Below are positions 6,014-29,146 of a stretch of DNA of 50,638 nucleotides, one piece after another (the first letter of the stretch is position 1; every line of letters starts with the position of its first letter). The notes under the pieces were generated by a model, which was not told the DNA's origin, ran no database searches, and saw only the letters and a program-made list of their open reading frames with translations. This DNA comes from Bacteriovoracaceae bacterium (GTDB lineage: Bacteria; Bdellovibrionota; Bacteriovoracia; Bacteriovoracales; Bacteriovoracaceae): assembly GCA_016786485.1 (NCBI GenBank), contig JAEUWD010000004.1, forward strand, positions 1-50,638. Direction: 5' to 3'. Position numbers and translations under genes: made by a program.

Positions 6014-9000
6014 TTAATGGCAGATATTTTGGAATTCGCAACTTGAGCAATATAGTGGGTTTTTCTCATCGGGCGACGAAACTTTTTTCCAGATTTGATA
6101 CAACTCTCTCTCGAGAGTTGGGTAATCCATATTTACCTCGAACAGTTGCTGTTCATCAACATAGCAAAGGACAAGTTTAATCCGAGCGTTTTTATCAACT
6201 AACTTTTGAGCTGCTGTAGCGTACGCATAAGCTTTAAGTTGGAACCAATAACTCAAAGATTTTTCTTCGTTTGGTTTACCTGTTTTGAAATCCCATATCT
6301 GACAATCGTTATCGGAGATGAGAACCAAATCGGGAGTTCCAGAAACCATGGAATCGAAAAATGAGAACTTCATTTGAACTTCAGAAATAAAGCGATGAGT
6401 TTGGCGATAGGGACTTAAAACTTCCAAAGACCAATTGATGGCGTTTAAATCTTTATTCTTAAATTCTTTTCTGGATGGAACCCAATTGCGCTGAATCGCT
6501 TCCGCAATTTCCGCGTGAATAAAAGTTCCACGCTCAGAAGATGATTTTTGACCCATTGGCAAACTCTGCTGAGCTTCACCAACTTTGGTCGTTTCAAAGA
6601 AAGCTAATTCTTCTTTGCTAAATTTTAAAATATTTTTGAAATAAAACTTCCGAGGGCACACTGCCAGCGTTGCTAAACCCGTAACAGATAATTGAGGGAT
6701 AAGGCCTAGCTTTGCTTCTCGCTGTTCATTATTACTTTGTGAGAAAATTCCTAATGGATTCGTATGAAACAGGGCCTTACTTATATTGACTTGAGCTTTA
6801 CTCTTTTCAACTGTAACAAAACTTTTTGGTTCGTTTGAAATATATTGAATACCAGTTAAAATCTCTTTTCCGAAATTATCTTGCTCAAAAGCATGTAATC
6901 CCTTAATCCAGGATTTTGCATTTTGTTTAAGCTCAACGTCTTTGGCCAAAATATCTATCCAGGTGATTTCATTTTTCGCACGTGTACCGACAACATAGAA
7001 AAGACGTTTCGACTCTGCAAATTCTTTATGAGTTTGATAAATTTTCTCACAAATAAAATGCGGCGTTTTAAAAGCAGTTTTTTGATTTGAATGTAGATAC
7101 CACTTAAAGCTGAGGGGCCACTTCCCTATTAAATCGTTCGAAGGTTTCGAAATACCATTGGTGTGAAGGCCCGCCATGATGACTTCATCAAACTCTAGGC
7201 CTTTCGAAGCGTGTGCAGTCATAATCAAAATTTTCTCAGGATTATTTCCATACTGCAGATTCATGGAGAAGCGATTTTTAGCATTATCTTTTAGCGCCAG
7301 ATAAAAACTTTCTAAATTGTCTGCATTATTGGCCAAGCCTTTAATCACATCCAAATTATTTTTGTAATTTGCATTGGAAATGCTAAGCTCTTGCAATAAT
7401 TGATAGAACGAAAGTTGCACGCCCCAGTTTTTAATATTGCTATAAAAACCATTGATAATATTTGCGAGATTCTCGGGCTTCTTGAGTTTAAGAATTTCAA
7501 TATAACCCTCAAGCATCATTCCGATATATTTTAAACGAATCGCTTCTTCGCGTTTTGAAAACTTCGATTCTGCCAAGACATATAACATGCCAATGATTGG
7601 TTCATCAGAATAAGGAATTTTTACTTGAGCAGTGAAACTCAAACCTTCTTTCATCATCAGGTTGATCAAATACTGACTTGGCTTCAAACTTTTATAGAGG
7701 ATAACCACTTGATGTTTCGCCTCTTTCAAGTGCTCAACAATCTTCTGGGCCTCAAGGAAATTATAATCATCATTACTTAGCTTCGTTTCTTCTGATAATT
7801 CTAATTCGTATTTAATTTTTCGAATCTTGCCAGGCTCTGAATAATTAATACCTTCTGGAATATTTTGATAAACTACCTTGACCGCCATCAAGTCTTGACC
7901 TTTAAAGCCTAAGCCTTTGGCAAAAAGATTTTCAAAAAGGGCATTATTAAACTCGATAACTTTCGGTTGTGAACGATAATTATTCTTTAACATAAGAACT
8001 TTTGAGATATTTTTTTCGCAATCCCAAAAAACGCCTAACTCACCACCACGAAAGCCATAGATGGCTTGCTTCTCATCACCAACGCAGAAGAGGCGATTGA
8101 AATCATTTTTGATAATTTTCTTTAAAATATCGAACTGAACTTGTGAAGTATCTTGAAATTCATCAACGATAAAGTATTCGTACAATTCGTATAATTTTTC
8201 TTGGCAATTTTTATCATTAAGCCCTTTAAGGACATAATATTCTAAGTCGGAAAAGGTAATACCTTCGATTTCTTGATAATGAGCCTCGATATAATCCACA
8301 ATACTTTTTATCGTTTTTGCCCAATGAGAAATTTTATCTTTATTAGCAAAGAAAGTTTCAAAATCTTCTAATGCATCTTTGAAGTAAAGTGATTTGAATT
8401 CTCGCAGCTTATCAAAGTAATCATTGATCGCATCAAGCCCGAGCTTTTTCATAGGTGCGCGAGCGACAGGATTCATTTCGAAATAGCTTTTCCAAAGCTT
8501 AAAATCTTCTTCTGAACTTAATCCTCGTTGCATATATGCTGAGGTTTGCTCCATATATTTATACCAACTGGTTTTCTCGTGCTCGTTGTAACTTAAATAA
8601 CTTGAACCACTTTCAAAAAGTTTTTCGAAACCTTCCAAGAAGTTAATTTGCTTTAATGTCTCAGTTATCGAAAGGTCATTTCCGATCTTTGTTGTACTCC
8701 AGTAAAGTCTTAGCCCTGGATCCATAAAAATCTCCATCAAAGACTCAAGGACTGCTGATTTATTGGCACGAATAATTTCAAGAATGAAATCGTCTTTTTG
8801 ATTAACTAACCAAGAATCAAAAAGGCTTAAAATCTTCGTTTGAAATTCTGATTCAGAAATAATACTTGAAGCCGAATTAATACCGGCGATATGACCCTGT
8901 TTAATTAATTTAAAACAAAACCCGTGGATGGTTCCCACGTTCATGTAATTCAACATTTTAATAGCGCTATCCCAGGGATTAAATCCATCTCCACTCCACT

Positions 9001-9277
9001 CGGCTTGTTTTTGCTTAAAACGTTTGGTTAAACGAATTGAAAGCTCACCAGCGGCTTTATTGGTAAAAGTCATTAAAACAATTTTTGAAAAATAGTCTCG
9101 AAGTTTTTTTTCTAATTCTTCCGCATTCGCCGTTTGAGACTTATCAATCACCTTCTGTGCTAAATAAATAATATGCTCAACGAGAACAAAAGTTTTACCT
9201 GAACCGGCACCGGCCTTGAGTAAAACACCCCCGCTATGCTCAATCGCCAATAATTGTTCGGTGTTTGCTTTAGACAT
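6014..9277 (-). CDS. addA: AddA/RecB-like UvrD-family helicase-nuclease
   Basis: This is a 1087-residue superfamily 1A DNA helicase with a C-terminal nuclease. Visible motifs are Walker A AGAGSGKT (22-29), motif Ia VLMTFTNKAAGELS, motif II VDEFQDTS (about 371-378), motif III VGDEKQAIYGFRGG, motif V TAHASKGLEF and motif VI RLFYVVGTRAK. Near the end is a PD-(D/E)XK core, PDLVLISDNDCQIWDFKTGK (about 975-995). It is flanked by a Cys in AVCPRKF (about 873) and the terminal CSSCEFQNIC, the four-Cys pattern of an Fe-S-stabilised nuclease. It would process double-strand breaks for RecA recombination together with the upstream partner. The ATG overlaps that partner's stop by 8 bases. In the best-known AddAB only AddB carries the cluster, so its presence here is notable. 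Confidence 0.88.
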   Translation of the reverse strand: MSKANTEQLLAIEHSGGVLLKAGAGSGKTFVLVEHIIYLAQKVIDKSQTANAEELEKKLRDYFSKIVLMTFTNKAAGELSIRLTKRFKQKQAEWSGDGFNPWDSAIKMLNYMNVGTIHGFCFKLIKQGHIAGINSASSIISESEFQTKILSLFDSWLVNQKDDFILEIIRANKSAVLESLMEIFMDPGLRLYWSTTKIGNDLSITETLKQINFLEGFEKLFESGSSYLSYNEHEKTSWYKYMEQTSAYMQRGLSSEEDFKLWKSYFEMNPVARAPMKKLGLDAINDYFDKLREFKSLYFKDALEDFETFFANKDKISHWAKTIKSIVDYIEAHYQEIEGITFSDLEYYVLKGLNDKNCQEKLYELYEYFIVDEFQDTSQVQFDILKKIIKNDFNRLFCVGDEKQAIYGFRGGELGVFWDCEKNISKVLMLKNNYRSQPKVIEFNNALFENLFAKGLGFKGQDLMAVKVVYQNIPEGINYSEPGKIRKIKYELELSEETKLSNDDYNFLEAQKIVEHLKEAKHQVVILYKSLKPSQYLINLMMKEGLSFTAQVKIPYSDEPIIGMLYVLAESKFSKREEAIRLKYIGMMLEGYIEILKLKKPENLANIINGFYSNIKNWGVQLSFYQLLQELSISNANYKNNLDVIKGLANNADNLESFYLALKDNAKNRFSMNLQYGNNPEKILIMTAHASKGLEFDEVIMAGLHTNGISKPSNDLIGKWPLSFKWYLHSNQKTAFKTPHFICEKIYQTHKEFAESKRLFYVVGTRAKNEITWIDILAKDVELKQNAKSWIKGLHAFEQDNFGKEILTGIQYISNEPKSFVTVEKSKAQVNISKALFHTNPLGIFSQSNNEQREAKLGLIPQLSVTGLATLAVCPRKFYFKNILKFSKEELAFFETTKVGEAQQSLPMGQKSSSERGTFIHAEIAEAIQRNWVPSRKEFKNKDLNAINWSLEVLSPYRQTHRFISEVQMKFSFFDSMVSGTPDLVLISDNDCQIWDFKTGKPNEEKSLSYWFQLKAYAYATAAQKLVDKNARIKLVLCYVDEQQLFEVNMDYPTLERELYQIWKKVSSPDEKNPLYCSSCEFQNICH

Positions 9278-11678
9278 AAACGCCTTCCATTTGACGTGGA
9301 CATAGGTTTCTTAGATCACAGAAATCACAGGTCGTGCTTTTTCTAGGAGCTGGAGCAAAAGATTTTTCGTTTTGAATTTGAGCAATAATTGTTTTTTCAA
9401 AATCCTTATAGTCACTAAATAAATTTGAAAAATTTTCGAGATGATAAGTTTTTATTTTACTATCAGGATTAAGCATCATCTCGGTATTAGCAAAGAAAAT
9501 CGATTCTTCCGGATCAGACATATTGAAAAAGCCAATTTGGACTTCTTTCTGTTCAATTTCTTGATTATTCAGAACATTTAAGTAAAACCATAATTGAATT
9601 TTATCAAAATGTAGAACTTCTGATTTGTTCGGAATACTAAATCCGCCGCGCTTCATATCCACAATTAAACAACGTTCCGGCGATTCTGCCCAAAAGTCGA
9701 TAGAACCAACCTTGTTCACGCCATCTTCTTTGGTCATAAATTTCTTCTCGAAATTAAAAACCAGCTGTGGATCGGACAAAAGAATTCCACCTAAAAACTT
9801 AATCGCGTTTTCCGTATAGTTACGAAGTTCAATTTCATAAATTTTACGAGTGTTTAATGGTATGCTTAATTTATTCTCACGAACAAAACGTTCGAATTCT
9901 TGCTTGAGCACTTTTTTATGAAGTTCAGTGTCCCAACTCTTACTCATCGAAAAATAAACTTCAACTACACGGTGTTCCAGTGTCCCTAATTGATTCGGTA
10001 ACATTTGAGTTTCTAGCTTAATATCAGGATTTAGTTGCTCGATATAACTAAAATAGAACTTACGTGGGCAGTCCAAGTATCCCTGAATTTTACTGGCAGA
10101 GATCGAATTCATAGGAATAAAGTGCTTCGTTTGTTCTTTTAAAAAATCACCACGATAAGGCGCCTGCTCTGAGACGGCTTTGTTGTGTAAAGCAATTTCA
10201 CAGCTTTCCACAAATTCATTCCAAAATTGCTCATGCTGAATAATTCCCTGCTCAATGAAGAATGAAATGTTTTTATTTTTAAGTAATTCTAAAATTTTAG
10301 ATTTGATGAGCGCATTTTCAAATTCACTTTTCCGGATAGGTCCAACCACCATCAATTTGCTTTCGAGTTCATTACTTAAAACTTGTTCTCCCACGGCAAC
10401 TGCCGAGTATTCCGAAGTTAAACAAAGATAATTATGTTGATACTCTTCAGGCGCTAGAAAACTACTTAAATTGCTGACTAAAATCTGGGACTTATCAACA
10501 ATTTTATTAATAAAGTTTTTAGGAGCATTCAATTTCACGACATCTTTGAAAATTTTTAATTCTTTTAAACTAAAGACGATATTATCTGAAGAAAGTTCCT
10601 GCCACTGTGTCACCACATCAAGATATAAAAACAAAGCCTTCAGTGTACGGTAATCATCTCCGGCCTTAAAACTTTTAATTTCAGCTTTAAAATCATCGAC
10701 GAGCACTTCAACTTCAGCACGGTCGGCATTTTGCAGATACTTTTTTTCGATAACCCGAAAGCGCTTATTAATCTCATCTTCTAAGGTTTCATGAGAAGTC
10801 CTAAACGAAGCATCCGCAAATGGAATTTCAAAAATGTGCGACATCTGATTTTTATTCTGACACAGAATGATCTGGTTTCCGGGCTTCACCTCATCTAAGA
10901 GGATTTTTCCTAATGAGCCTTTTGAAAAAGTGGTCATATTTATTTTAATTTTATTTTCTTGGGCTTCCGGATCGATAACATATTCTTTGGCCAACGCATC
11001 TTTTAGCCAACCCAACCAATCCGCTTTGGTTGATTTTAAATTCGCTTCATAAGGTACTGGAATATAAACATCGTCTCGAATACTTAGTGATTTAATAAAA
11101 TCAATTTGTTGCGAGGAAATATTTTGAAAATCGAGGAAGATAATATTGCGCTTTTTCTCATGATATTCATCTAGCGGTATTGCTCTGACTTTATTTGCTA
11201 ATTCAGCAAAAGCACTATGTTCATCCAAATAGCCCAACTGAGTTAATAATTGATTAAACATCAAAACTGGTGCGGTTAGATTCGGTTCAAATTCTTCGAG
11301 TAAACTCTTAAGCAGAACATCATCCAAAGTATAACTGCGAAGTTCGGTAATCGTCTTAAAAGCACTTTCAAAAGTTTCGTAAGTAATATCTGGAAAAAAC
11401 TTAATACAAATCGATGAAAAGAGTAATTTAAGCTCCGCTTTACGTTTGATATTGAAAGACGAATCCTCCTGAAAATAAAAAGCAATTTCATTTTTAGCAA
11501 ACTTGGAAATGGTCAGAACGTCACATTTCACTTCCGTATAGATTTTTGAAAGCTTGGCCCTTATGGCATCGGCTGAATCGGGCGAAGGAGCTACCACAGT
11601 CAAATCGTTATCACCCTGGCTTAAGAAACCAAGTTTATAAAGCTGAGATTGTTGGTGATATATCGGTAGGTAAAGCAT
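9270..11678 (-). CDS. addB: AddB-like PD-(D/E)XK nuclease subunit
   Basis: This 802-residue partner of the helicase-nuclease is encoded immediately upstream of it. The N-terminal half is a degenerate helicase-like region with no Walker A motif, as in the AddB of many Gram-negatives. The C-terminal third is a RecB-family nuclease: a Cys in YLDCPRKFYF (about 537), the catalytic strand CLIVDMKRGG (about 670-680), and the terminal TCDFCDLRNLCPRQ, completing a four-Cys Fe-S site. The ATG at 11678 has an AGGAG ribosome site 5 bases away. The family role is end resection with AddA at double-strand breaks. Identity as AddB rests on the paired arrangement and the Fe-S nuclease; a divergent RecB-family exonuclease is the alternative. 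Confidence 0.8.
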   Translation of the reverse strand: MLYLPIYHQQSQLYKLGFLSQGDNDLTVVAPSPDSADAIRAKLSKIYTEVKCDVLTISKFAKNEIAFYFQEDSSFNIKRKAELKLLFSSICIKFFPDITYETFESAFKTITELRSYTLDDVLLKSLLEEFEPNLTAPVLMFNQLLTQLGYLDEHSAFAELANKVRAIPLDEYHEKKRNIIFLDFQNISSQQIDFIKSLSIRDDVYIPVPYEANLKSTKADWLGWLKDALAKEYVIDPEAQENKIKINMTTFSKGSLGKILLDEVKPGNQIILCQNKNQMSHIFEIPFADASFRTSHETLEDEINKRFRVIEKKYLQNADRAEVEVLVDDFKAEIKSFKAGDDYRTLKALFLYLDVVTQWQELSSDNIVFSLKELKIFKDVVKLNAPKNFINKIVDKSQILVSNLSSFLAPEEYQHNYLCLTSEYSAVAVGEQVLSNELESKLMVVGPIRKSEFENALIKSKILELLKNKNISFFIEQGIIQHEQFWNEFVESCEIALHNKAVSEQAPYRGDFLKEQTKHFIPMNSISASKIQGYLDCPRKFYFSYIEQLNPDIKLETQMLPNQLGTLEHRVVEVYFSMSKSWDTELHKKVLKQEFERFVRENKLSIPLNTRKIYEIELRNYTENAIKFLGGILLSDPQLVFNFEKKFMTKEDGVNKVGSIDFWAESPERCLIVDMKRGGFSIPNKSEVLHFDKIQLWFYLNVLNNQEIEQKEVQIGFFNMSDPEESIFFANTEMMLNPDSKIKTYHLENFSNLFSDYKDFEKTIIAQIQNEKSFAPAPRKSTTCDFCDLRNLCPRQMEGVYV

Positions 11679-11753: not shown

Positions 11754-12572
11754 ATGCGCGAAAGCAGACTATACAGCTTCCTAGACAATAAGAATGGTTT
11801 TACCCTTCATTTTTTTGAAGGTCAAAAACTAATGGCCAATCTTTCACTCTTAAAGAACCTACAAATCTCATCTTTCGCCTATTATCGCGACATCGTCCTA
11901 AGCACGGTTCCGATGATTTCGTTTCTTAAGCCAACTGAGGGTTTTGGGCTTTATCTTGATTCGCAATCGCCCTATTTTCGCTTTAAAATTGAAGCCAACA
12001 GTAATGGGTCGTTAAGAACGCTTTTATTGCCAGAAAGCTTTAATCAATTTCCAGATAAAATCACCGGTGAAGCACGCTTTGTAAAAAACCTGCCAGGCAG
12101 TGTTCCCTATACTTCGATTATCAAAATTGACAATGAACCGACGGCCGAAATCATCAATCGTATCCTCAATGAATCGTACCAAACAAATGCCAATGTTCAG
12201 CTGGGAAATACCATCGACCAAAGTTTAATGGTGGTAAAATTACCTCAGCTTAACGTCGACAAACATTACGACGATTCAACTTCCATGAAAGAATTTTTAT
12301 TAAAAAATAAAAAGTTTATTCAATACACTTTTGATGCTGACTTAAACGACATCGAACAAATCGTGAATTACTTCGAGCAAAATGGTTATGCCTACATGGC
12401 CAGTCGTGAAGTTCGTTTTCACTGTCCTTGTTCAAAAGAAAGAATGATCGCCAATCTCAGTACTTTAAGCGTTACTGACCGTGAAGATCTTTTTGACAAA
12501 AATGGCGTGATCGAAGCTAAATGCGATTACTGCTTAACTGTTCACAAAATTCTACGTTCTGATTTTAATTAA
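11754..12572 (+). CDS. hslO: Redox-regulated chaperone Hsp33
   Basis: This 272-residue protein has the diagnostic C-terminal zinc/redox switch of Hsp33: CPC at Cys224/Cys226 in VRFHCPCSKERM and CDYC at Cys257/Cys260. The N-terminal domain (1-180) fits the Hsp33 fold. In reduced form the four Cys bind zinc and the protein is inactive; oxidation releases zinc and turns it into an ATP-independent holdase in the cytoplasm. The gene is divergent from addB across 75 bases. Its stop overlaps the stop of the convergent lipoprotein gene by 4 bases (12569-12572). The ATG has no recognisable ribosome site; the sequence TATAGA seven bases before it suggests leaderless expression. Confidence 0.95.
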   Translation: MRESRLYSFLDNKNGFTLHFFEGQKLMANLSLLKNLQISSFAYYRDIVLSTVPMISFLKPTEGFGLYLDSQSPYFRFKIEANSNGSLRTLLLPESFNQFPDKITGEARFVKNLPGSVPYTSIIKIDNEPTAEIINRILNESYQTNANVQLGNTIDQSLMVVKLPQLNVDKHYDDSTSMKEFLLKNKKFIQYTFDADLNDIEQIVNYFEQNGYAYMASREVRFHCPCSKERMIANLSTLSVTDREDLFDKNGVIEAKCDYCLTVHKILRSDFN

Positions 12573-13573
12573 AATGGATTAAGAAATAATAATTTTAAAC
12601 CTTGCTGCTTTGGTGAACTCAGTAACCTAGCATAAACATCTGACTGCTCAAATAAACCGCAAAAATTTTCAGAGCGTGCACCTTTAGCAAAAACCGGCGA
12701 CATTAAAAGACGATTTTTGTAAACCGAGCCAGTTAAGTCGAGTTCCAATTTCTGCCAATCTTCACCTTGCATCGGAAGATCAACCCCAATTGCACTCGAG
12801 CTAGTAACCAAGATCAAAAACTCTGGATCATTCTTTTGTAGAGCGGTGAAATAAGCTAACAAGGCTTCAAACTCATTCAAAGCACTTTTCATGGCCGGAG
12901 TACTTCCACGAGCAACACCATCTTCAAGCGAAAAATCGCGAATCATATAAAGATACTTATCTTTATTCTTTAGGCTTTTCTCGTAAATAGAAATCACATT
13001 GGCCGACAATGGGCTGAAACATTTATTTTGTTGGCAAGATTTGTCGTAATAGATTTTATTTTCAGAGTAACTTAAATTACTACCGCTATGAAAATGATTG
13101 GCTTTTTCGTCATTGTTAGCTTGCATGGTAAAAACTGTACTTAAATTTAAAAAATTATTTTTTTCACATTTCGTCGATTGAATCAAGCTATTACCTGGCT
13201 TCACCGGATTTTCTAAAATAACCGTTTTATAGTCATAGTCTTCTAGTGTTTGCCAGATCGGCTTTCGGTCATAATCTTCACAGTTATTTTTGATGTTTTT
13301 TGAATGGGTAACTTCAGATAAAAAGCCTTGATAAGAACTCGCGCGTAGGCGGTAAAGATCATAACTCCAAGTTTTACCAAGACATGAAAAACTCTCAAGT
13401 TGCACAGGATTTGATTGATGAAACTTCAAAAGCGACATCATATTTTCATCAAATCCGGCCAATTGAATCCAAATGATTTTCTTTGGTTGCACGCCAAAAT
13501 GATGCTCTTTTAAATTCAAACCTGTCATCCGAGCACAAGAGCAGACAAGGAGTAAAAATATTAATTTTTTCAT
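12569..13573 (-). CDS. Lipoprotein of unknown function, possibly alkaline-phosphatase-like fold
   Basis: This 334-residue protein has the N-terminus MKKLIFLLLVCSCARM, a hydrophobic stretch ending in Cys residues (11 and 13), so a lipoprotein is likely. I do not recognise the family. The opening strand KKIIWIQLAGFDENMMSLL, the middle KPIWQTLEDYDYKTVILENP and the late strand FLILVTSSSAIGVDLPM resemble the spacing of alkaline phosphatase/sulfatase superfamily proteins (a first beta strand followed by a metal Asp, 'what the target is called' segments). The metal ligands are not clearly conserved, so it may be degenerate. It is co-transcribed with the membrane protein upstream (ATGA overlap at 13570-13573). 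Confidence 0.6.
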   Translation of the reverse strand: MKKLIFLLLVCSCARMTGLNLKEHHFGVQPKKIIWIQLAGFDENMMSLLKFHQSNPVQLESFSCLGKTWSYDLYRLRASSYQGFLSEVTHSKNIKNNCEDYDRKPIWQTLEDYDYKTVILENPVKPGNSLIQSTKCEKNNFLNLSTVFTMQANNDEKANHFHSGSNLSYSENKIYYDKSCQQNKCFSPLSANVISIYEKSLKNKDKYLYMIRDFSLEDGVARGSTPAMKSALNEFEALLAYFTALQKNDPEFLILVTSSSAIGVDLPMQGEDWQKLELDLTGSVYKNRLLMSPVFAKGARSENFCGLFEQSDVYARLLSSPKQQGLKLLFLNPF

Positions 13574-14160
13574 AAAGCTTCTTCTTCCAATCTATTGTCG
13601 AGAATAGTTTTTATCAAAATTTGATTGATTAATTTGAAGTAGAAAATCATTGAAACGCCAAAGAGAATTTCACTGACGAGAATTTGACCCAAGTGATAAA
13701 AAGCCATGTCGGCCAAAGCAAAAAATGAAAAATACAAAGAAGCCCGAAAACTCAACTGATAGTTTTTTCGAAAAAAATAAAAAATCGCGACTGGTGCAAA
13801 AACTAAAAGAACTCTCGATATTAGAAATGCCTCAGTGCCTGAATACCACGCCCACAAACCTGCAATCAGTGGTAAACGCATCGAAATGCGGCGGTGAACT
13901 TTGCGTGGTTCCGTTTGAACAAAAAGTAGAATAAGTGAAAGTAGCGAAACAATATTGATAAGTTCGAATGCCTTTATTAGTTTAAACATCAGCTCTGGAG
14001 GAAGTTTGCTAAGCCCAACAGGTAGGCCATACATGATACACAATATAAAAAAACTTAATAAACCCAAAATAGCTAAGGCCTTTTCTAAACCCCATGTTTT
14101 AAAACGTATAATCGTTGTCAACAAATAGCCAAAACTTAAAAAACTGTTAATTATCCACAT
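13570..14160 (-). CDS. Multi-pass membrane protein of unknown function
   Basis: This 196-residue integral membrane protein has about six hydrophobic helices (near residues 2-18, 27-45, 63-83, 95-112, 115-130 and 140-185). They are separated by short charged loops such as TEPRKVHRR. No catalytic motif or family signature is recognised. Its TGA overlaps the ATG of the lipoprotein gene, so the two probably work together at the cell envelope. A minus-strand promoter is plausible: TATAAT lies at 14198-14193 with CTGACA 15 bases upstream. The ribosome site is poor (AGG only 1 base before ATG). Confidence 0.6.
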   Translation of the reverse strand: MWIINSFLSFGYLLTTIIRFKTWGLEKALAILGLLSFFILCIMYGLPVGLSKLPPELMFKLIKAFELINIVSLLSLILLFVQTEPRKVHRRISMRLPLIAGLWAWYSGTEAFLISRVLLVFAPVAIFYFFRKNYQLSFRASLYFSFFALADMAFYHLGQILVSEILFGVSMIFYFKLINQILIKTILDNRLEEEAL

Positions 14161-14219: not shown

Positions 14220-14251
14220 TGAAATAATGCATTAACATCGCAGGAGGTTAC

Positions 14252-16258
14252 ATGAATACGACTTTGGCCACACGAGAAATTATGTGGAACATCCCAGACT
14301 CTTACAAGGTGGTGATGTACATCCTGTTCTTTATTGCCGTAGGAATTTTCTTCTATGGTTCATATCTCAAATATCAATATGTCACTGGTGGAAAAGGCTT
14401 AAAACCACTTCTGCCTGAGCGTTTAAATTGGTCTCGTTTTTTCAAAACAATTTTTCTTCAAGGCAAAGTAAAACGTGATTCATTCGTAGGTTTTTTTCAC
14501 GCGATGATTTTTTATGGTTTTATTATTCTTTGGATTGCAACTGATCTGGTTGCTGTTCACTACGATACACCATTTAAAGTTTTTCAAGGCACAACATATA
14601 TTGTTATTTCTTTTCTCGCTGATATCGGTGGCGTAACAATACTTCTTGGCTTAATGTTTGCTTTCTATCGACGCTATATTTTAAAGCCAAGCTATTTAGC
14701 AGCGACTAAGCCAAAACAAGAATTATACATGTATATCACACTTGCCGTTTTGACCCTGGTTGGTTTTGCACTTGAAGGTATTCGTATTCTAGGAACGGGT
14801 ATGCCCATTAACGAATCTGTTTGGTCACCAGTTGGTTGGTTCCTTGCTAGCGCCATTCAAAAAATGGCGATGCCTGAAGAAACACTCGCAGGACTCTATC
14901 GTGGACTTTGGTTTTTCCACATGGTCAACACTATGGTGTTCGTAGCTTCCATTCCATTTTCAAAATTTTTACACATTTTATCACTTCCATTTGCTTCACT
15001 AATAACACCTGAGCGCCGAGGCGCGATTTTAAAGCCGATGAATTTCGAAGATGACACAAAGGAAACTTTTGGGCTTGGTAAACTTTCAGAAATGACAGCC
15101 AAAAACCGCCTAGACACTATTTCATGTGTTGAGTGTGGAAGATGTACACAGGTTTGCCCAGCGAACTTAGCTGAAAAACCATTAAACCCAAAAACGATTA
15201 TTACAAAAGCTCGTGATGCAGCTGCCGGCTTAACTAAGGGTCAGGATGTTGATTTCTGGGAAAAAAATCTTTATGAAATGAATGAACTTGATGCTTGTAC
15301 AACTTGCGGTGCTTGTATGGAAGAGTGTCCTGCTAATATCGAACATGTTGATATCATCATGAATCTGAAGCGCTATAAGGCACTCACCTTGGGTACATTG
15401 CCACCGGCCGCTGCTGATGCTGCTAACAAAATTAAAGTTAATGGTAACCCTTGGGGGATTGCTCAAGATGACCGATTTAAGTGGGCCGATGGTATGGATG
15501 TCCCAGTCATCGAAACTGGAAAAAAAGTTGATTATTTATATTATGTCGGCTGCGCCGGCTCCTACGATGCTTCAAACCAAAAAGTAGTTAAAGACACCGT
15601 TATGATGCTAAAAAAAGCGGGCGTAAGTTTTGCAGTGATGGGCAAAACTGAAAAGTGTAACGGTGACCCAGTTCGCCGTTTCGGTGATGAATATACTTTC
15701 TTCGAACTTGCGATTGAAAACATTGCAAACATGAAGCAATACCAATTTGATAAAGTCGTGACTCATTGTCCACACTGCTTACACACCATTGGAAAAGAAT
15801 ATGCTAAATTTGAAAATGGCAGCTTCGATACTGTTCACCATACTGAATTACTAGCAGACTTAGTGAACACAGGAAAATTAAAGCCAACTAAAGTTGTACA
15901 ATCAGAGCTGACTTTCCATGACCCATGTTACTTAGGTCGTCATCATGGAGCTTATAATCCTCCTCGTGAGATCTTAAATTCTATTCCAGGAGTAAAACTC
16001 AAAGAAATGGAAAAAAATAAGGATAAAGCTCTCTGTTGCGGAATGGGTGGCGGAAATATGTGGTACGAGATTAATCAAGGTAAACATTTAGCTGAAAATC
16101 GCCTCGATCACATTGCTGAAACTACTGTTAATAAACTTGCCACTTCGTGCTCGTATTGTATGATTAACTTTAACTCCTCGAAGGGACTAAATAATAAAAC
16201 TGAAAACCTAGAAGTTGAAGATGTGGCGTCAATACTTGCAAAATCGGTTTTGGATTAA
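14252..16258 (+). CDS. Membrane Fe-S oxidoreductase (EtfD/HdrD-like, cytochrome b-type N-domain)
   Basis: This 668-residue protein has about five N-terminal membrane helices (20-40, 81-101, 112-136, 160-180, 218-243), as in NarI/HdrE-type quinone-reactive subunits. Two 4Fe-4S motifs follow, CVECGRCTQVCP (about 291) and CTTCGACMEECP (about 348). Two CCG domains come last, with VGCAGSYD (about 431), HDPCYLGRHHG (about 557) and CCGMGGGN (about 594). This layout is that of membrane oxidoreductases proposed to take electrons from electron-transfer flavoprotein to menaquinone (EtfD), and of HdrD. A strong ribosome site (AGGAGG, 6 bases before ATG) supports high expression. It heads an operon with three exported proteins. 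The precise electron donor is inferred. Confidence 0.85.
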   Translation: MNTTLATREIMWNIPDSYKVVMYILFFIAVGIFFYGSYLKYQYVTGGKGLKPLLPERLNWSRFFKTIFLQGKVKRDSFVGFFHAMIFYGFIILWIATDLVAVHYDTPFKVFQGTTYIVISFLADIGGVTILLGLMFAFYRRYILKPSYLAATKPKQELYMYITLAVLTLVGFALEGIRILGTGMPINESVWSPVGWFLASAIQKMAMPEETLAGLYRGLWFFHMVNTMVFVASIPFSKFLHILSLPFASLITPERRGAILKPMNFEDDTKETFGLGKLSEMTAKNRLDTISCVECGRCTQVCPANLAEKPLNPKTIITKARDAAAGLTKGQDVDFWEKNLYEMNELDACTTCGACMEECPANIEHVDIIMNLKRYKALTLGTLPPAAADAANKIKVNGNPWGIAQDDRFKWADGMDVPVIETGKKVDYLYYVGCAGSYDASNQKVVKDTVMMLKKAGVSFAVMGKTEKCNGDPVRRFGDEYTFFELAIENIANMKQYQFDKVVTHCPHCLHTIGKEYAKFENGSFDTVHHTELLADLVNTGKLKPTKVVQSELTFHDPCYLGRHHGAYNPPREILNSIPGVKLKEMEKNKDKALCCGMGGGNMWYEINQGKHLAENRLDHIAETTVNKLATSCSYCMINFNSSKGLNNKTENLEVEDVASILAKSVLD

Positions 16259-18170
16259 TTTTTGTTTTTTAATATTAGGGATCACTCTCGTGGTCCCTTA
16301 TTGCCCCGCTGAAGAATCACTTCCACCAGGTATTTTCACTAGCCTAAAGAAACTCATCGCCATTGACCAAAAAGTTCTCACCAAGAAAAATGATATCTAT
16401 TACAAAAATCCCAAGAAGCTAAAAGACCTTGAAGGTATTAAAGATATCAAAATCGATCCGGATTTTCTGAACACCATGATTTTGCATTCGCCTTCAAAAT
16501 ATTGGAATCTGGCGAGAGATTCAAGCTGCCTCTTTTTTAATCTGCTAAATACCGACTTACTAAAAACCAATGAAGGAATGATTCGTAATATTCTGATTCA
16601 AATCCAAACCAAGGAAGGCACTTGGGAACCTGCCGTGGTCAGTAAGGCCGATTATTTAAAAAAAGTTGTTCCTGAAAAATGTCATAGTGTCATGGAAGCG
16701 CAGTTTTTATTTCGAGGAAACAACCTCAAAACTTCTTTCGAAAAAATGACAGGCCCTAAAGCTACTACAATGGATGAGTGCTTAAGTTTTCACAATGAAT
16801 TTCAACGTGATTATAAAACCGCTTATTACTGTAATATTTATGAAAAAATCCATAATGCTAATCGATTAAAAACCCAGCTTTCTCGTCTACCTCTAAAATT
16901 CGTTAAGCAGCGTGAAGAAATAAATGCAGAATTAGAGTTTGTCTCGAAAATGAAAAATTACATTACTCAAAAACAATACGGCACAGTTGCGAGCCTTTGT
17001 GAAAATCTCAACGAACCAACGAAATATTGCCAAGATTTATTCAATAACAGTTTTTGGAATAAGATACTAACTGGTGAACAAAGCTTTCGTCATATTGAGC
17101 CTATTTGTGAAGAGATTACACAAAAAACTAAAGTCACTGCTGCGGTCGATGCCAAAAAATGTGTTTCAATCCTTAATCAAAATGATGAACTCTGTACTTA
17201 TGCAACGATCAACAAATTCTCGGCCCTAACACCAAAGCCACTCTGCAACGAAATCAGTAAGGCCATGAATTATTCACGACTTTATTCATTCGTGAAAGAC
17301 TGTCCTGGCCAAGCCGGAAACGAAGCCGTGACGAATATCGCTCGTATTATTCGACATTTTGATTCTTCCCAAACAGAAGAAAAAAATAGTTTATGCTCAA
17401 CTAATAACAGTATTACTTTTGCTGAAGCCAACATAGCTGGTGAAAACGCCGATGCTTGGGGCTTCCATGCTTGTTACTATGATAAAATTAAAGAAGGCGA
17501 TGAATGTCTTCCAGTCATCGTTGGTAATTCGGCCAAGAGTGAACTTGATATGGGTAAAGTGGCGGTTGGGATTTTACTCAAACTAGGCAAAGTTCCTACG
17601 GGTACAACCTGTAAAGTCGTCGATGACCAAACTTATAACCCTGGACGCTTAGAATACAAATCCGGTTGTTACTTTGTGGTTGACCATAAATCATGCTTAG
17701 CTTCAAAATGTCAGGTCAAAATTATTCTACAAGAAAAAGAAGTTACTGGGGTTGAGTTCCGTTCAGATTTTGATTTTGATTATATTCGCAACAACGTGGA
17801 AAATTTAAAATATACACAGCTTGCCGTTATGACTTCTCAATTTGATCTAGAACATAAAACTATTAAAAACACGACCGAGTTAGCACATTTACTTAAAGCT
17901 AAAGAGAATGCTATTGTTCATGGCATCGGTTGTGCTGAAGATATTCTTCCACAATTTTTCCAAAAAAATTATTTTAATCAATGTCACCCACTACCCTTTA
18001 TCGTGGATGGATTTTTCATTGAAAACGACACACATTTTGTGGTGGTACGAACTGCGCTTGATGATATTCAAGCACCACGTATTATTAATTGGGGATTTGT
18101 TTACAATGGTCTGAAAAATTACCAGAACCTCCACCCTCTACAAACTTGGAGTTTCAATGCTACTTATTAA
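16221..18170 (+). CDS. Large exported Cys-rich protein of unknown function
   Basis: About 649 residues. The ATG at 16221 lies inside the 3' end of the oxidoreductase gene (38-base overlap); a TTG two codons earlier is also possible. The N-terminus MWRQYLQNRFWINFCFLILG has basic residues and a hydrophobic core, so it should be exported. The mature part contains many Cys (for example near SLCENLNEPTKYCQDLF, KPLCNEI and GCYFVVDHKSCLASKC), suggesting disulfides in the periplasm or outside. The last ~100 residues hold GIGCAEDILPQFF, LPFIVDGFF, THFVVVRTA and IINW. The strand-then-HFVVV spacing recalls papain/C39-type peptidases, but the catalytic Cys is not clear. Function unknown; linkage to the next two exported proteins suggests a shared pathway. 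Confidence 0.65.
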   Translation: MWRQYLQNRFWINFCFLILGITLVVPYCPAEESLPPGIFTSLKKLIAIDQKVLTKKNDIYYKNPKKLKDLEGIKDIKIDPDFLNTMILHSPSKYWNLARDSSCLFFNLLNTDLLKTNEGMIRNILIQIQTKEGTWEPAVVSKADYLKKVVPEKCHSVMEAQFLFRGNNLKTSFEKMTGPKATTMDECLSFHNEFQRDYKTAYYCNIYEKIHNANRLKTQLSRLPLKFVKQREEINAELEFVSKMKNYITQKQYGTVASLCENLNEPTKYCQDLFNNSFWNKILTGEQSFRHIEPICEEITQKTKVTAAVDAKKCVSILNQNDELCTYATINKFSALTPKPLCNEISKAMNYSRLYSFVKDCPGQAGNEAVTNIARIIRHFDSSQTEEKNSLCSTNNSITFAEANIAGENADAWGFHACYYDKIKEGDECLPVIVGNSAKSELDMGKVAVGILLKLGKVPTGTTCKVVDDQTYNPGRLEYKSGCYFVVDHKSCLASKCQVKIILQEKEVTGVEFRSDFDFDYIRNNVENLKYTQLAVMTSQFDLEHKTIKNTTELAHLLKAKENAIVHGIGCAEDILPQFFQKNYFNQCHPLPFIVDGFFIENDTHFVVVRTALDDIQAPRIINWGFVYNGLKNYQNLHPLQTWSFNATY

Positions 18171-19170
18171 TTTTTTATGCTATGTCGCTATGGCAAATTT
18201 ACCAGAACTGAGCACCAAGCAATCGGTTGAAAATATTCGTTATCTTTCAAAAGACGGAAATATTACTTATTACCAATTACGTTCTGGTGTATTGTCGGTA
18301 ACAACTAGTTACAATAACAAAGTTATTTTTGAGAAAAAATCCGGAACGCAATATCATGTAACCGCTTCACATGAAATGAAAAAAACTTTAATTGAAGTTA
18401 TTGATAAATTTCATGGTGACTATAATATTCTTAAAAATAGTGAAATCTTTCTTGGGGATTATGGTGAGACGAAGACTATTTCTATCGGTCGCGGAATTAC
18501 GCCTCGTTTTCATCTGAACGGTGCTTGGATTTCTTATTATGATATCGAGAATAGAAAAATTTATATAAAAAATTCGACAGCACTAACCAAAAGTTTCACG
18601 ATCGATGTTGCGAACAAGACCAATCCTTTTTTTCAACCAAGTGTTGTTGTGCTTAATCCGGAAGTCTTTTTGTTCACTGACATTAATTCTCAAGGTGTTA
18701 TGGGGATTATGAAATACATGACCGCTGAACAAAAAATTTACCCACTGGTGAAGTCACCTCAGAATGGTATTCGCTTAGAAATGTGTAAAAAGAACAATGC
18801 ACTTTTTGTTGGTCAATTTAGTTACCCAACTTTAAAAAGAGGTAGCAGTATTTATAAGCTGACAGTCGATAGTTCTGGTATGAGTACGGCGCGAGATGAC
18901 CTTTATTCATCAAGCTTAGAAGATATTGGCAATATCGCATGCGATGTAAGTGGGAATCAGATTTATTTTGTAAAAATGCTTGATGCGAGCAAAAAATATG
19001 CGACAGAAGCTGCTGGCCTCGACTTTAATACAAAAAAAGTCACCATTATGAGCGATCTCAAATTTGTTTCTCAAATCGTGACAATGGATTCTCGAGCGTT
19101 TGTTCCTTTTAGAGATAAATTTTATATTTTAAATGGTGAAGATGAAAAAAAGAAACCTGCTAAAAATTAG
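18157..19170 (+). CDS. Exported beta-propeller-like protein of unknown function
   Basis: This 337-residue protein starts with ATG 18157, overlapping the upstream gene by 14 bases. A short N-terminal signal, MLLINFLCYVAMA, is followed by NLPELS. The body is made of short beta strands in repeating blocks (RYLSKDGNITYYQL, GAWISYYDIENRKIYIKN, EVFLFTDINSQGVMGIMKY, NIACDVSGNQIYFVK), the look of a TolB/WD-type propeller. No catalytic residues are apparent. It overlaps both neighbours and is therefore tightly coupled to the two other exported proteins in the operon. It may act as a binding partner of the larger upstream protein (inference). Confidence 0.65.
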   Translation: MLLINFLCYVAMANLPELSTKQSVENIRYLSKDGNITYYQLRSGVLSVTTSYNNKVIFEKKSGTQYHVTASHEMKKTLIEVIDKFHGDYNILKNSEIFLGDYGETKTISIGRGITPRFHLNGAWISYYDIENRKIYIKNSTALTKSFTIDVANKTNPFFQPSVVVLNPEVFLFTDINSQGVMGIMKYMTAEQKIYPLVKSPQNGIRLEMCKKNNALFVGQFSYPTLKRGSSIYKLTVDSSGMSTARDDLYSSSLEDIGNIACDVSGNQIYFVKMLDASKKYATEAAGLDFNTKKVTIMSDLKFVSQIVTMDSRAFVPFRDKFYILNGEDEKKKPAKN

Positions 19171-19996
19171 TTTAGTTTTAGTTCCCTGTTTTATAGCTTC
19201 AGCCCAAACGGCCCGAGTTATTCCTGGAACTGTACCTACTGAATTCCAGTTATTAATTGATAGCGTGAACGATTCACCATCAAAGCCTCTGGTTTATGGT
19301 TCTGCCAAACAAATTAACACCAACCTCGCTTTTGCCACGAAAAAAAATGTTTTTTTCATTATGAAGTCTGAAATTTATAAAACAGTTTTAGATTTCGAGT
19401 ATGATAAATACACACCAAATATTCAATTAGGGCCAAGTCTTTACAGCGCAGCCGAAGAAAAATATCAAAAAAATAAGTCTGTTTACAGTTCTTTTTCGAG
19501 CTGGATTATTCGTTCACTGCTAAGCGATCTCAAATTTAGAATCGAAACTCAAAAAGGCTTAGAAGACATTGTCGAAGGCAAATACTTACGACCGTGGTTT
19601 AAAAACATTATGAGTTATAGTCCTAAAGATTTTAACCTCATGACCAGTCGAATAGCATCGCTATCACTTCTGCGAATTACCAATATGTCTGGCATTATTA
19701 AAAACCAAACGGTTATCGACGAAAAAACCTCTGCCACCATGTATTTCGAAATTCAGGACGGACCATCTAATAAAGTAAACACACCACCGCCGGCACCCAA
19801 GACGGAAGAAATGCTAAAAAATATCATTCCTACTCAGGAAATTATCGACCTCGAGCTAGATGAAATTAACAAAGCGATTGGAACGCAATCGAGTCCTGAA
19901 TGGAAGCCAAAAAACAATGGATTACCGGCCCCTCTCGATGAAAATGCCGATGCGACTCCACTTGAAAAGAGCGACTGGAAGCCCAAAGCTCGCTAA
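19142..19996 (+). CDS. Exported protein of unknown function with Pro-rich tail
   Basis: About 284 residues. I chose the ATG at 19142, which gives MKKRNLLKISLVLVPCFIAS, a textbook signal peptide, with GGTGAAG just upstream. An earlier in-frame ATG at 19133 adds three residues. The gene overlaps the propeller-like gene by 29 bases. The mature region is mixed alpha/beta to about residue 205. A Pro- and Glu-rich low-complexity tail follows (NTPPPAPKTEEML, then EWKPKNNGLPAP and SDWKPKAR), containing a WKPK motif twice. No family is recognised. It ends the operon, 44 bases before hisS, and no terminator separates them. Confidence 0.65.
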   Translation: MKKRNLLKISLVLVPCFIASAQTARVIPGTVPTEFQLLIDSVNDSPSKPLVYGSAKQINTNLAFATKKNVFFIMKSEIYKTVLDFEYDKYTPNIQLGPSLYSAAEEKYQKNKSVYSSFSSWIIRSLLSDLKFRIETQKGLEDIVEGKYLRPWFKNIMSYSPKDFNLMTSRIASLSLLRITNMSGIIKNQTVIDEKTSATMYFEIQDGPSNKVNTPPPAPKTEEMLKNIIPTQEIIDLELDEINKAIGTQSSPEWKPKNNGLPAPLDENADATPLEKSDWKPKAR

Positions 19997-26136: not shown

Positions 26137-26904
26137 CTAGACTCCAATAATTGATAAGCCTGAATCAACATAAAGTATCTGACCGGTAACACCACCTGAA
26201 AGAGAAGAAGCAAGATAAGTGGCAGTACCACCAACATCTTCAATTGAAATATTTGCTCGTAGTGGAGCTCTCTCCTCTACCGTTTGCAAAATACCTCTGA
26301 AACCCGAGACACCCGAAGCTGCGAGTGTTTTAATCGGACCAGCTGAAATAGCGTTCACGCGAATTTTTTGTGGACCTAGGTCTTCAGCTAAATAGCGCAT
26401 GCTCGCTTCAAGTGCTGCCTTTGCTACACCCATCACATTGTATGAGCCCACCACTTTTTGTGAGCCATGATAAGTCATCGCCATAATTGAACCATCAGGA
26501 TTCATTAAATCTTGTAAAACTCTTGAAAGTCCCACGAGAGAAAAAGCTGAAATATCACAAGCCATTTTGAAACCTTCTCGCGAAGTATCTACAAAACGCC
26601 CTTTCAAATCTTCTTTATCAGCGAAGGCCAGTGAGTGAACTAAAATATCGAATTTTCCCCATTCAGAAATGACTTTTTCTCGAAGATTTTGATAGTCCTC
26701 ATCTTTGGTTACATCCATTCTCGTCACAAAATCAGCACCAACTTCTTGCGCCAATGGCACCAAGCGCTTTTCAATCGCCTCATTCACGTATGTTAGACCT
26801 ATCGCCGCACCGTGTTTTTTAAAAGCTTGTGTAATGCCCCAGGCAATTGAACGCTCGTTGGCCAAACCTAGAATAAGTGCTTTTTTACCTTCTAATAACT
26901 GCAT
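26137..26904 (-). CDS. fabI: Enoyl-ACP reductase (NADH), FabI type
   Basis: This 255-residue SDR-type enoyl-ACP reductase completes each cycle of fatty acid elongation (type II FAS, cytoplasm). Diagnostic features are the N-terminal nucleotide site GLANERSIAWGI, the FabI catalytic pair Tyr155-x6-Lys162 in SYNVMGVAKAAL, a second conserved Tyr145, and the substrate loop AGPIKTLAASGV. Length matches FabI (about 255-260). The ATG has GAGG 6 bases away. A minus-strand promoter, TCGACA (26952-26947), 16 bases, TATAGA (26930-26925), overlaps the divergent hisC promoter. It heads the operon running down to 24024. Confidence 0.95.
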   Translation of the reverse strand: MQLLEGKKALILGLANERSIAWGITQAFKKHGAAIGLTYVNEAIEKRLVPLAQEVGADFVTRMDVTKDEDYQNLREKVISEWGKFDILVHSLAFADKEDLKGRFVDTSREGFKMACDISAFSLVGLSRVLQDLMNPDGSIMAMTYHGSQKVVGSYNVMGVAKAALEASMRYLAEDLGPQKIRVNAISAGPIKTLAASGVSGFRGILQTVEERAPLRANISIEDVGGTATYLASSLSGGVTGQILYVDSGLSIIGV

Positions 26905-26924
26905 AAAAACCTCTTTGATAACAC

Positions 26925-26973
26925 TCTATAACCGAGACCCAAATTTGTCGAGAATTGAAGGACGTGCTACATT
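26925..26973. promoter_or_regulatory. Overlapping divergent promoters of fabI and hisC
   Basis: On the minus strand TCGACA (26952-26947) and TATAGA (26930-26925), spacer 16, point at fabI. On the plus strand TTGTCG (26945-26950) and TACATT (26968-26973), spacer 17, point at hisC. The two -35 hexamers share the bases 26947-26950, so RNA polymerase could probably occupy only one at a time. Both are consensus-like by eye but unproven. Confidence 0.45.
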
Positions 26974-27001
26974 CAAATTCACTCGAAAATTAGAGGTTCA
27001 T

Positions 27002-28129
27002 GTGACGAAACGCGATCTTATTCCTGACTATCTAAAAGAACTAAAACCCTACCAAGCAGGAAAGCCCATTGAAGAGCTGGCCCGCGAAAAAAACCTTACG
27101 AAAATTTCAAAACTTGCTAGTAACGAAAATCCCCTTGGTCCTTCACCGTTTGCCGTCAAAGAAATGACCTATGCGTTATGGGATGTGCATCGCTATCCTG
27201 ATATGCATAGTTATGAATTAAAGAATGAACTTTCAAAACTTTATAAATTAAAAAATGAAAATATTATTTTGGCCAACGGTAGCGAAGGTATTATGGCACT
27301 TATCGCTAGAACATTTGTTTTACCAGGGGACGAAGTCGTTACGAGTGAAAAAACTTTTTTAGGTTTTAATATTTTATTCAAAGGTGTTGGTGCTAAAATT
27401 ATTGAAGCGCCGATGACAAAAGATTTTAAATACAATGTTGAAGCTATCGCTAATTGTATTAATAAAAATACGCGTTTGGTTTATATCGCCAATCCCAATA
27501 ATCCTACGGGAAATTTTATTAAGCGTGATGAATTTGATTTTTTAATGTCAAAAATTCCAGCAAACGTGTTGGTGATTTTAGATGAAGCTTATTTTGAATT
27601 TGGTCGATTTGCTTCGAGCGAATACCCGGATTCAATGGACTATCGCTACGATAACGTTTTAACTCTTAGAACTTTTTCGAAAGCTTATGGACTTGCTGGT
27701 ATTCGTGTTGGTTATGGTTTTGGACATGAGACTCTGATTGGCCACCTTCATAAAATTAAATTAACTTTCGAGCCAGGTTCCATTGCACAGAAAGGTGCAG
27801 TAGGTGCTCTCGCAGATTATCCACATTTAAATCGTACGCTTAGAAATAATCGCCGCCGCTATAATCAAACGGCTGCGTTTTTACAGAAACATGATTTTAG
27901 AATTATTGATTCGGTTACCAATTTTATTTGTTTCCAAACAGGCTCAGAAGCCGCGAGTGACTTTATCTATGAAGAGCTTCTAAATCTTGGCGTTATCATT
28001 CGCCCACTACGCTCAAATCAAATGGCGGACTTCATTCGTGTTTCACTTGGTAGCAAAGCGGAAATGAATCATTTCTATGAAGCAATGGAACAAATTCTTC
28101 CAGCTTATAGTAAAAAATTTAGGAAGTAA
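27002..28129 (+). CDS. hisC: HisC-family (histidinol-phosphate/aromatic) aminotransferase
   Basis: This 375-residue PLP-dependent fold-type I aminotransferase starts at GTG 27002, with GAGG 5 bases away; the reading frame stays open further upstream but lies antisense to fabI. Motifs are SKLASNENPLGPSP (N-terminal substrate arm), YIANPNNPTGNF, VILDEAYFEF and the PLP lysine Lys227 in TFSKAYGLAGIRVGYG. HisC makes histidinol phosphate in histidine synthesis, but close relatives act on tyrosine and phenylalanine. No other his gene is near, and the next genes degrade homogentisate. I therefore think an aromatic aminotransferase role (tyrosine to 4-hydroxyphenylpyruvate) is at least as likely. The symbol reflects the family only. 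Confidence 0.85.
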   Translation: MTKRDLIPDYLKELKPYQAGKPIEELAREKNLTKISKLASNENPLGPSPFAVKEMTYALWDVHRYPDMHSYELKNELSKLYKLKNENIILANGSEGIMALIARTFVLPGDEVVTSEKTFLGFNILFKGVGAKIIEAPMTKDFKYNVEAIANCINKNTRLVYIANPNNPTGNFIKRDEFDFLMSKIPANVLVILDEAYFEFGRFASSEYPDSMDYRYDNVLTLRTFSKAYGLAGIRVGYGFGHETLIGHLHKIKLTFEPGSIAQKGAVGALADYPHLNRTLRNNRRRYNQTAAFLQKHDFRIIDSVTNFICFQTGSEAASDFIYEELLNLGVIIRPLRSNQMADFIRVSLGSKAEMNHFYEAMEQILPAYSKKFRK

Positions 28130-28130
28130 T

Positions 28131-29138
28131 ATGAAGATTTGCACTTTAAAAATTTCAACTAAATATGGAACGCTCAAACGTGCAGGTTTATTTTTCAATG
28201 AGAGCACCATTATTGACATCAATCATGTTTGGCAAATTTATTTTGAGAAATGGGGTGCTTTCAATCCTGAAGTTCGCTCACAAGTTTTAACTCCGGCCAG
28301 TGTGGCACAAATTATTACGAGTAACCAAGCTCCGATTGAAAAACTGCAAGAGACACTTGAGCTTTATAAAAAATATACCAAAGAAGGAATTCTTAAAACA
28401 AAAGACGGTGCGCCGCTCGCCTACGATATGCATGATGATAAATCATTAGAGCTTGCGTGCCCTTTAGATAAAATGAATTCATATCGTGATTTTTATGCTC
28501 ACGAAAAACACGTTAAAACCGGTTTTGCAAAGAGAAATGAACCCATTCCACCAGCTTGGTATGAAATCCCAGCTTACTATAAAGGTTCAACACTGGGTTT
28601 TATCGGACACAAACAAGATATTTTTTGGCCAAATTACACAAAGCAACTGGATTACGAACTTGAACTCGGAATGATCCTTGGTCGCGATGGTAGAAACATT
28701 AAAGCTAAAAATGCTTTTGATCATATTTTTGGTTTCACTATTCTTAATGATATTTCAGCGCGCGATATTCAACGCCAAGAAATGTCGATTCGCTTGGGAC
28801 CGGCCAAAGGCAAAGATTTCTGCTCAGTCATGGGTCCAGTGATCGTAACAGCGGATGAATTTAAAAATAAAGATCCCGATGTTTTGATGACAGCAACTAT
28901 CAACGGCGAAGAATGGTCACGTGGCCGCTCTGGTGATTGTCATTACTCATGGGGAGAAATGATTGAACACGCTAGTCGTGAAGAATGGTTAGTGGCGACT
29001 GATTTCTTTGGTAGCGGAACAGTTGGCACAGGCTGTGGATTAGAATTAGATAAATGGATTAAACCTGGTGATACGATTACACTTGAGATTGAAAAAATTG
29101 GAAAACTCACAAATTTAGTTGGCCCACCAACGACATAA
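28131..29138 (+). CDS. Fumarylacetoacetate hydrolase family protein
   Basis: This 335-residue protein starts at ATG 28131, one base after the hisC stop; its ribosome site (AGGAAG) lies within hisC. The FAH metal site is visible: Asp120 and His124 in YRDFYAHEKH, Glu176 and Glu178 in DYELELGM, and Asp207 in LNDISARDIQ. Fumarylacetoacetase cleaves 4-fumarylacetoacetate to fumarate and acetoacetate, the last step of tyrosine/homogentisate breakdown. Other FAH-fold enzymes (decarboxylases, acylpyruvases) share these ligands. The downstream homogentisate dioxygenase makes fumarylacetoacetase the best reading. Length is between the short FAHD type and the ~420-residue eukaryotic enzyme. Confidence 0.88.
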   Translation: MKICTLKISTKYGTLKRAGLFFNESTIIDINHVWQIYFEKWGAFNPEVRSQVLTPASVAQIITSNQAPIEKLQETLELYKKYTKEGILKTKDGAPLAYDMHDDKSLELACPLDKMNSYRDFYAHEKHVKTGFAKRNEPIPPAWYEIPAYYKGSTLGFIGHKQDIFWPNYTKQLDYELELGMILGRDGRNIKAKNAFDHIFGFTILNDISARDIQRQEMSIRLGPAKGKDFCSVMGPVIVTADEFKNKDPDVLMTATINGEEWSRGRSGDCHYSWGEMIEHASREEWLVATDFFGSGTVGTGCGLELDKWIKPGDTITLEIEKIGKLTNLVGPPTT

Positions 29139-29146
29139 GGATTGAT

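Follow-up and report, generated by a model that had tools for sequence, protein, structure and literature searches.

Three exported proteins and a divergently encoded lipoprotein form, we believe, a family-specific exported assembly of the Bacteriovoracaceae cell envelope, a reading that on balance is the probable one. The three proteins, called here CYS (rich in cysteine), PROP (a predicted β-propeller) and PRO (with a proline-rich tail), are encoded directly behind etfD, the gene of a membrane Fe-S oxidoreductase, in a window of 50,638 nt, the window being the whole stretch of DNA analysed. Export signals, conservation, co-occurrence and folds were all obtained by computation; anchoring, docking and complex formation are inferred. 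EtfD itself is best regarded as a neighbour of the exported block rather than as a demonstrated part of it.

Organization of the locus

The four genes all lie on the plus strand. EtfD (14252–16258, +; 668 aa) has a NarI-like membrane domain, two 4Fe-4S motifs and two CCG domains, and its gene is preceded by an AGGAGG ribosome-binding site directly before the ATG (14242–14247, +). It is followed by CYS (16221–18170, +; 649 aa), PROP (18157–19170, +; 337 aa), in which C210 and C262 are conserved, and the fast-evolving PRO (19142–19996, +; 284 aa), all three predicted to be exported. In the ORF listing of the window the successive overlaps are 38, 14 and 29 nt; these overlaps, as well as the ORF coordinates, agree with what a first-pass annotation of this DNA had reported. 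A TTG at 16215 is a possible alternative to the CYS ATG at 16221, and PRO has an alternative in-frame ATG at 19133, the overlap with PROP being 29 nt from 19142 or 38 nt from 19133. The ribosome-binding site of PROP (GGAG, 18148–18151, +) is found within the 3′ end of CYS, 5 nt upstream of the PROP ATG. Within the block, counts of internal promoter and terminator signals are not above those in shuffled sequences, and a scan of the window found no Rfam families and no tRNA.

Upstream, and diverging from etfD, are the genes for an alkaline-phosphatase-like lipoprotein (12569–13573, −; 334 aa) and a small hydrophobic membrane protein (13570–14160, −; 196 aa), which overlap each other by 4 nt; downstream of PRO lie hisS and valS. 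Signal-peptide-like N-termini, as scored by a heuristic test, are present in 35/38 CYS, 34/38 PROP and 32/36 PRO homologues, and in none of the HisS (0/27) and ValS (0/26) controls, in line with the earlier suggestion that the three downstream proteins are exported.

Other gene runs are also apparent in the window. Three consecutive TPR-type proteins of 294, 955 and 470 aa are encoded with slight overlaps at 74–5228 (−), and an AddA-like helicase-nuclease (UvrD + PD-(D/E)XK) and an AddB-like PD-(D/E)XK protein at 6014–11678 (−), and of the 27 genera where this could be tested, 26 keep the AddB-like gene beside the block. A run of the tyrosine-degradation type, made up of aminotransferase, fumarylacetoacetate hydrolase and homogentisate dioxygenase-like genes, lies at 26705–30235 (+); provided that the listed starts are correct, the aminotransferase and fumarylacetoacetate hydrolase genes overlap by about 53 nt.

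Conservation and distribution of the block

Gene order is strongly conserved. In loci sampled across genera, and picked for holding CYS, the adjacencies are CYS–PROP in 37/37, PROP–PRO in 36/37, EtfD–CYS in 35/37 and lipoprotein–EtfD in 34/36, with looser flanks (PRO–hisS in 24/35; valS–cysZ in 9/19). The fixed four-gene unit proposed from the window is thus seen to recur, and separation of the trio from the oxidoreductase is the exception among relatives, not the rule. In most of the 37 genera, whose mean pairwise identity is about 29%, CYS and PROP overlap by 14 or 17 nt (some overlaps look longer because longest-ORF starts were used). Since overlap and gene order are both kept across 37 genera this divergent, the overlaps are not chance. 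A PRO homologue stands behind PROP at nearly all 37 loci despite a mean identity of 19%, PRO being the fastest-evolving protein of the block.

Among the 78 nearest genomes, single-sequence searches detected CYS in 47, every one belonging to the Bacteriovoracaceae (47 of the 48 genomes of the family); the only family genome without it, G008, is 85% complete and has neither etfD nor PROP, the pattern expected of a missing contig. Profile searches of 241 Bdellovibrionota genomes found CYS in 72 (35 genera), all Bacteriovoracaceae or the GTDB equivalent, and PROP in 70, all in the family; in the two genomes where PROP was missed, CYS lies at the edge of a contig. The divergent lipoprotein is found in exactly the 72 genomes that carry CYS, and it probably belongs to the exported set, though it lies outside the span originally noted. 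Outside the Bacteriovoracaceae, the profiles detected neither CYS, PROP nor the lipoprotein in the 241 genomes, and the CYS profile had no match in 18 genomes of other phyla, a set that holds no positive control. The whole set is present at all 11 named Bacteriovoracaceae-type loci, including that of Halobacteriovorax marinus, and no member of it was found at EtfD loci outside the family.

Two genera, G017 and G022, have etfD elsewhere, with lipoprotein, CYS, PROP and PRO still together. They are sisters in the EtfD tree (support 100/100), and in G017 etfD is found beside an acyl-CoA dehydrogenase gene; this departure counts as a single event, which sets etfD apart from the other genes.

Clade-wide co-occurrence can be mere vertical inheritance, and the most serious competitor to a single assembly is that these genes are co-located passengers of a conserved, slowly rearranging region and an operon, their exported products having separate envelope roles. 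We hold this to be a real possibility, though clearly the less likely of the two. The AddB-like, hsp33, lipoprotein, hisS and valS genes are likewise often retained around the block, the persistence of hsp33 and the AddB-like gene nearby indicating that this part of the chromosome rearranges slowly, and overlapping genes are common in the window (for example, a start at 28077 lies inside a gene ending at 28129). Passengers would not be expected, however, to stay together as the trio does, both when etfD departs and in all genera that have lost hisS or valS from the locus, nor does the explanation sit easily with four fast-evolving exported families restricted to one bacterial family. The pairwise distances of CYS and PROP are also correlated (0.78, falling to 0.66 once hisS and valS are taken out), as are those of CYS and the lipoprotein (0.66), while EtfD distances against the trio give r of 0.00–0.10; the pairs are non-independent and the influence of a few EtfD outliers is large, and we take these correlations as supporting evidence only.

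A more specific form of the single assembly would be a predation device, with the exported set acting as a prey-attachment or invasion complex. This mostly predatory family includes Bacteriovorax and Halobacteriovorax, and the proteins are exported, fast-evolving and absent from other Bdellovibrionota. The set is nevertheless present in all sampled family genomes, including small ones of 1.6–2.3 Mb, and absent from the other sampled families, though the phylum also holds the predatory Bdellovibrio; its distribution fits a lineage-specific core envelope role equally well. A predation-specific role within one assembly seems to us rather unlikely.

The exported proteins and the lipoprotein

PROP is confidently predicted to be a β-propeller, as its sequence had already suggested on first reading. 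The AF2 model is all β (pLDDT 92, pTM 0.88), with repeated four-stranded blades closing a ring, and Foldseek returns more than 1000 propeller-dominated PDB matches at E < 0.001. The fold is similar to TolB- and WD40-like propellers (E ~1e-8 to several, including TolB of Tol-Pal), but PROP differs from them in having no sequence-family match, an identity of 8–14%, no TolB domain architecture and a distribution specific to the Bacteriovoracaceae. Pfam, NCBIfam, PHROGs and PADLOC gave no meaningful match to CYS, PROP or PRO, whether queried singly or as alignment members, and sequence-profile searches of the PDB none to CYS and PROP.

The proline-rich tail described for PRO also holds, in many genera, a specific W-containing motif: LPxPx[ND][ND]W is present in 15 of the 38 tails (0.005 in shuffles) and some W motif in 22/38 (4.7 in shuffles), the tail often ending in LPxPV[ND]DW, while in 16/38 third genes the W-motif tail is absent or degenerate. 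At the DNA level, the corresponding pattern has 27 occurrences in 76 family genomes and 0 control hits; every site with a known operon position is inside the third gene, the operons of five genomes not being placed. The PRO of the window has a reduced motif, WKPK, twice (…PEWKPKNN… and the C-terminal …SDWKPKAR). The W motif may be a docking peptide. In one relative (L141, 6709–7527, −), a long glutamate run replaces the W motifs in the tail of the third gene.

The lipoprotein has a lipobox Cys13 that is invariant in 36 sequences and followed by Ala, Ser or a like residue, i.e., position +2 is not Asp. Its C-terminal 127 positions align to TAB5 alkaline phosphatase (PDB 2w5v; profile E 1.1e-10). 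Unlike in TAB5, the motifs DWGGH, DHETGGF and GGHSA are not kept in the lipoprotein family, nor are the metal-binding Asp and His residues, the aligned columns being non-ligand across the family. The lipoprotein is thus probably a pseudo-enzyme, with a predicted anchor in the outer membrane. At the position of the small membrane protein, an ORF of similar size is present in roughly half of the relatives, and in one genome (G025) this protein and the lipoprotein form one 587-aa ORF (L137:9283–11046), a fusion which suggests that the two work together.

CYS is cysteine-rich, as first described: at 20 alignment columns Cys is found in 35 or more of the 38 sequences, and 18 of these columns are invariant. 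C204 and C260 are lost jointly, in the same three sequences, as expected of a disulfide, and from its sequence CYS probably has ten disulfides. The AF2 model (pLDDT 86.6, pTM 0.61) has a helical N-terminal array and an α/β C-terminal part that weakly resembles papain- and C39-like folds. In the PDB, Foldseek ranks cathepsins, staphopain and a C39-like peptidase first, with ~120 columns aligned (E 0.19–0.5, probability up to 0.92), and among viral models there are weak matches to phage papain-like proteins. One reading of these matches makes CYS a secreted cysteine peptidase of papain or C39 type that PROP and PRO would regulate, but we think this very improbable: no match has E < 0.001 and TM-scores are below 0.4 (TM-target at most ~0.36); a conserved Cys–His catalytic pair is lacking, as none of the His residues is invariant in the 38 homologues, the most conserved, H567 and H638, being lost in several genera, which makes an active peptidase unlikely; and 20 is an even number of Cys, leaving no spare nucleophile. 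A role for CYS as a secreted redox partner of haem or Fe-S type was also considered and is rejected, as the Cys number is even and no CxxC or CxxCH redox or haem motif is conserved across the family.

In the envelope assembly that we favour, CYS, PROP and PRO would be exported by Sec, with the gene overlaps coupling translation and so setting a fixed ratio. The exported proteins would then be oxidized by the DsbA-type proteins of the genome, in which there are four DsbA-family matches, and the lipoprotein would anchor the set at the outer membrane. CYS would serve as a disulfide-rich scaffold and PROP as a platform, the repeated W motifs of PRO acting as multivalent ties that dock on PROP or CYS. 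Such an assembly might serve envelope maintenance, or else prey attachment and invasion. EtfD would be co-located only, and serve electron transfer from β-oxidation to quinone. A bolder version is an outer-membrane-anchored machine of all four proteins, unique to the Bacteriovoracaceae, in which multivalent LPxPV[ND]DW tails would clamp PROP to the disulfide-stapled CYS for gripping or entering prey at the predator surface; this is speculative, and we rate it below a predation role in general.

The neighbouring EtfD

Enzymes of the EtfD family pass electrons from β-oxidation to quinone. Judged by its residues, the oxidoreductase of the window is a canonical EtfD, with a predicted activity of ETF:menaquinone oxidoreductase. 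Its closest named relatives (63–72% identity) are from Bacteriovorax, Halobacteriovorax and further Bacteriovoracaceae, and it aligns over nearly its full length to the EtfD structure of M. smegmatis (PDB 9ojn; E 5.8e-92). In the mycobacterial enzyme, the linear cluster D1 is bound by Cys503, 538, 581 and 584 (residue 539 is not a Cys), the noncubane cluster D2 by Cys637, 672, 673, 709 and 712 and His583, and the membrane haem b by His78 and His241 (PMC13083937). The window EtfD has all the corresponding ligands: C434, C469, C506 and C509 for D1, N470 taking the place of an additional Cys of Hdr; C559, C595, C596, C633, C636 and H508 for D2; and, by alignment, H83 and H241 for the haem iron. 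Its two 4Fe-4S motifs are C292/295/298/302 and C349/352/355/359. The two enzymes thus share Fe-S ligands, the haem His pair and the CN/CPHC motif of cluster D1, and differ in that the M. smegmatis protein ends in a long, disordered tail which the window EtfD lacks, and in that the window etfD has no adjacent etfAB and is followed by the exported trio. The partner ETF is encoded elsewhere in the genome, in an etfB–etfA–acyl-CoA dehydrogenase run at G000:C45; in Bacillus sonorensis, the gene of an EtfD homologue adjoins those of a thiolase, a hydroxyacyl-CoA dehydrogenase and acyl-CoA dehydrogenases.

Within the family, two types of cluster ligands are found at residues 469–470 and 506–509, CN..CPHC (the window, mycobacterial type) and CC..CPHG (L134, L135 and L150), and the EtfD of L130 and L131 combine CC with CPHC. 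This is a hint that site D1 may not carry the same Fe-S cluster in all of them.

That EtfD hands electrons to secreted CYS and PROP is the least probable reading of all: the adjacency of etfD and CYS and the many Cys of CYS would fit it, but EtfD shares its Fe-S and haem-iron ligands with the M. smegmatis ETF:menaquinone oxidoreductase (PMC13083937), its soluble clusters face the cytosol, its ETF and acyl-CoA dehydrogenase are encoded elsewhere, and it is found without the trio in 22 of 30 genomes of the phylum from outside the family, as well as in many other phyla. The trio persists when etfD moves, and CYS has an even number of conserved Cys and no family-wide CxxC or CxxCH. Of the proposal that a quinone-reducing EtfD/HdrD-like enzyme and secreted proteins together make up an undescribed system, the undescribed exported unit stands; functional membership of EtfD, a canonical enzyme that moves apart in G017 and G022 and has distances uncorrelated with those of the trio, is not supported.

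Biological significance

Comparison of five Bacteriovoracaceae chromosomes has yielded 564 gene clusters that are conserved in and specific to them (PMC11656739), and the genes of the block are probably among these. Family-specific proteins of unassigned role are thus a known kind. The main text of that study holds no description of the block, its conserved order, the disulfide scaffold or the tail motif, and we found no mention of the block in the literature searched, a body that leaves out most subscription journals. What is added here is a conserved multi-gene arrangement with a testable structure, built from families undescribed in the libraries searched. A tempting misreading is also corrected: the etfD next door belongs to ordinary β-oxidation and does not point to a secreted redox chain.

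Little is known of the machinery with which Bacteriovoracaceae live on and inside other Gram-negative cells, and the majority of their family-specific genes are without a function. A single-copy exported set, with its order kept in more than 35 genera, a putative docking motif and candidate disulfide partners, offers a concrete target for knockout and structure determination.
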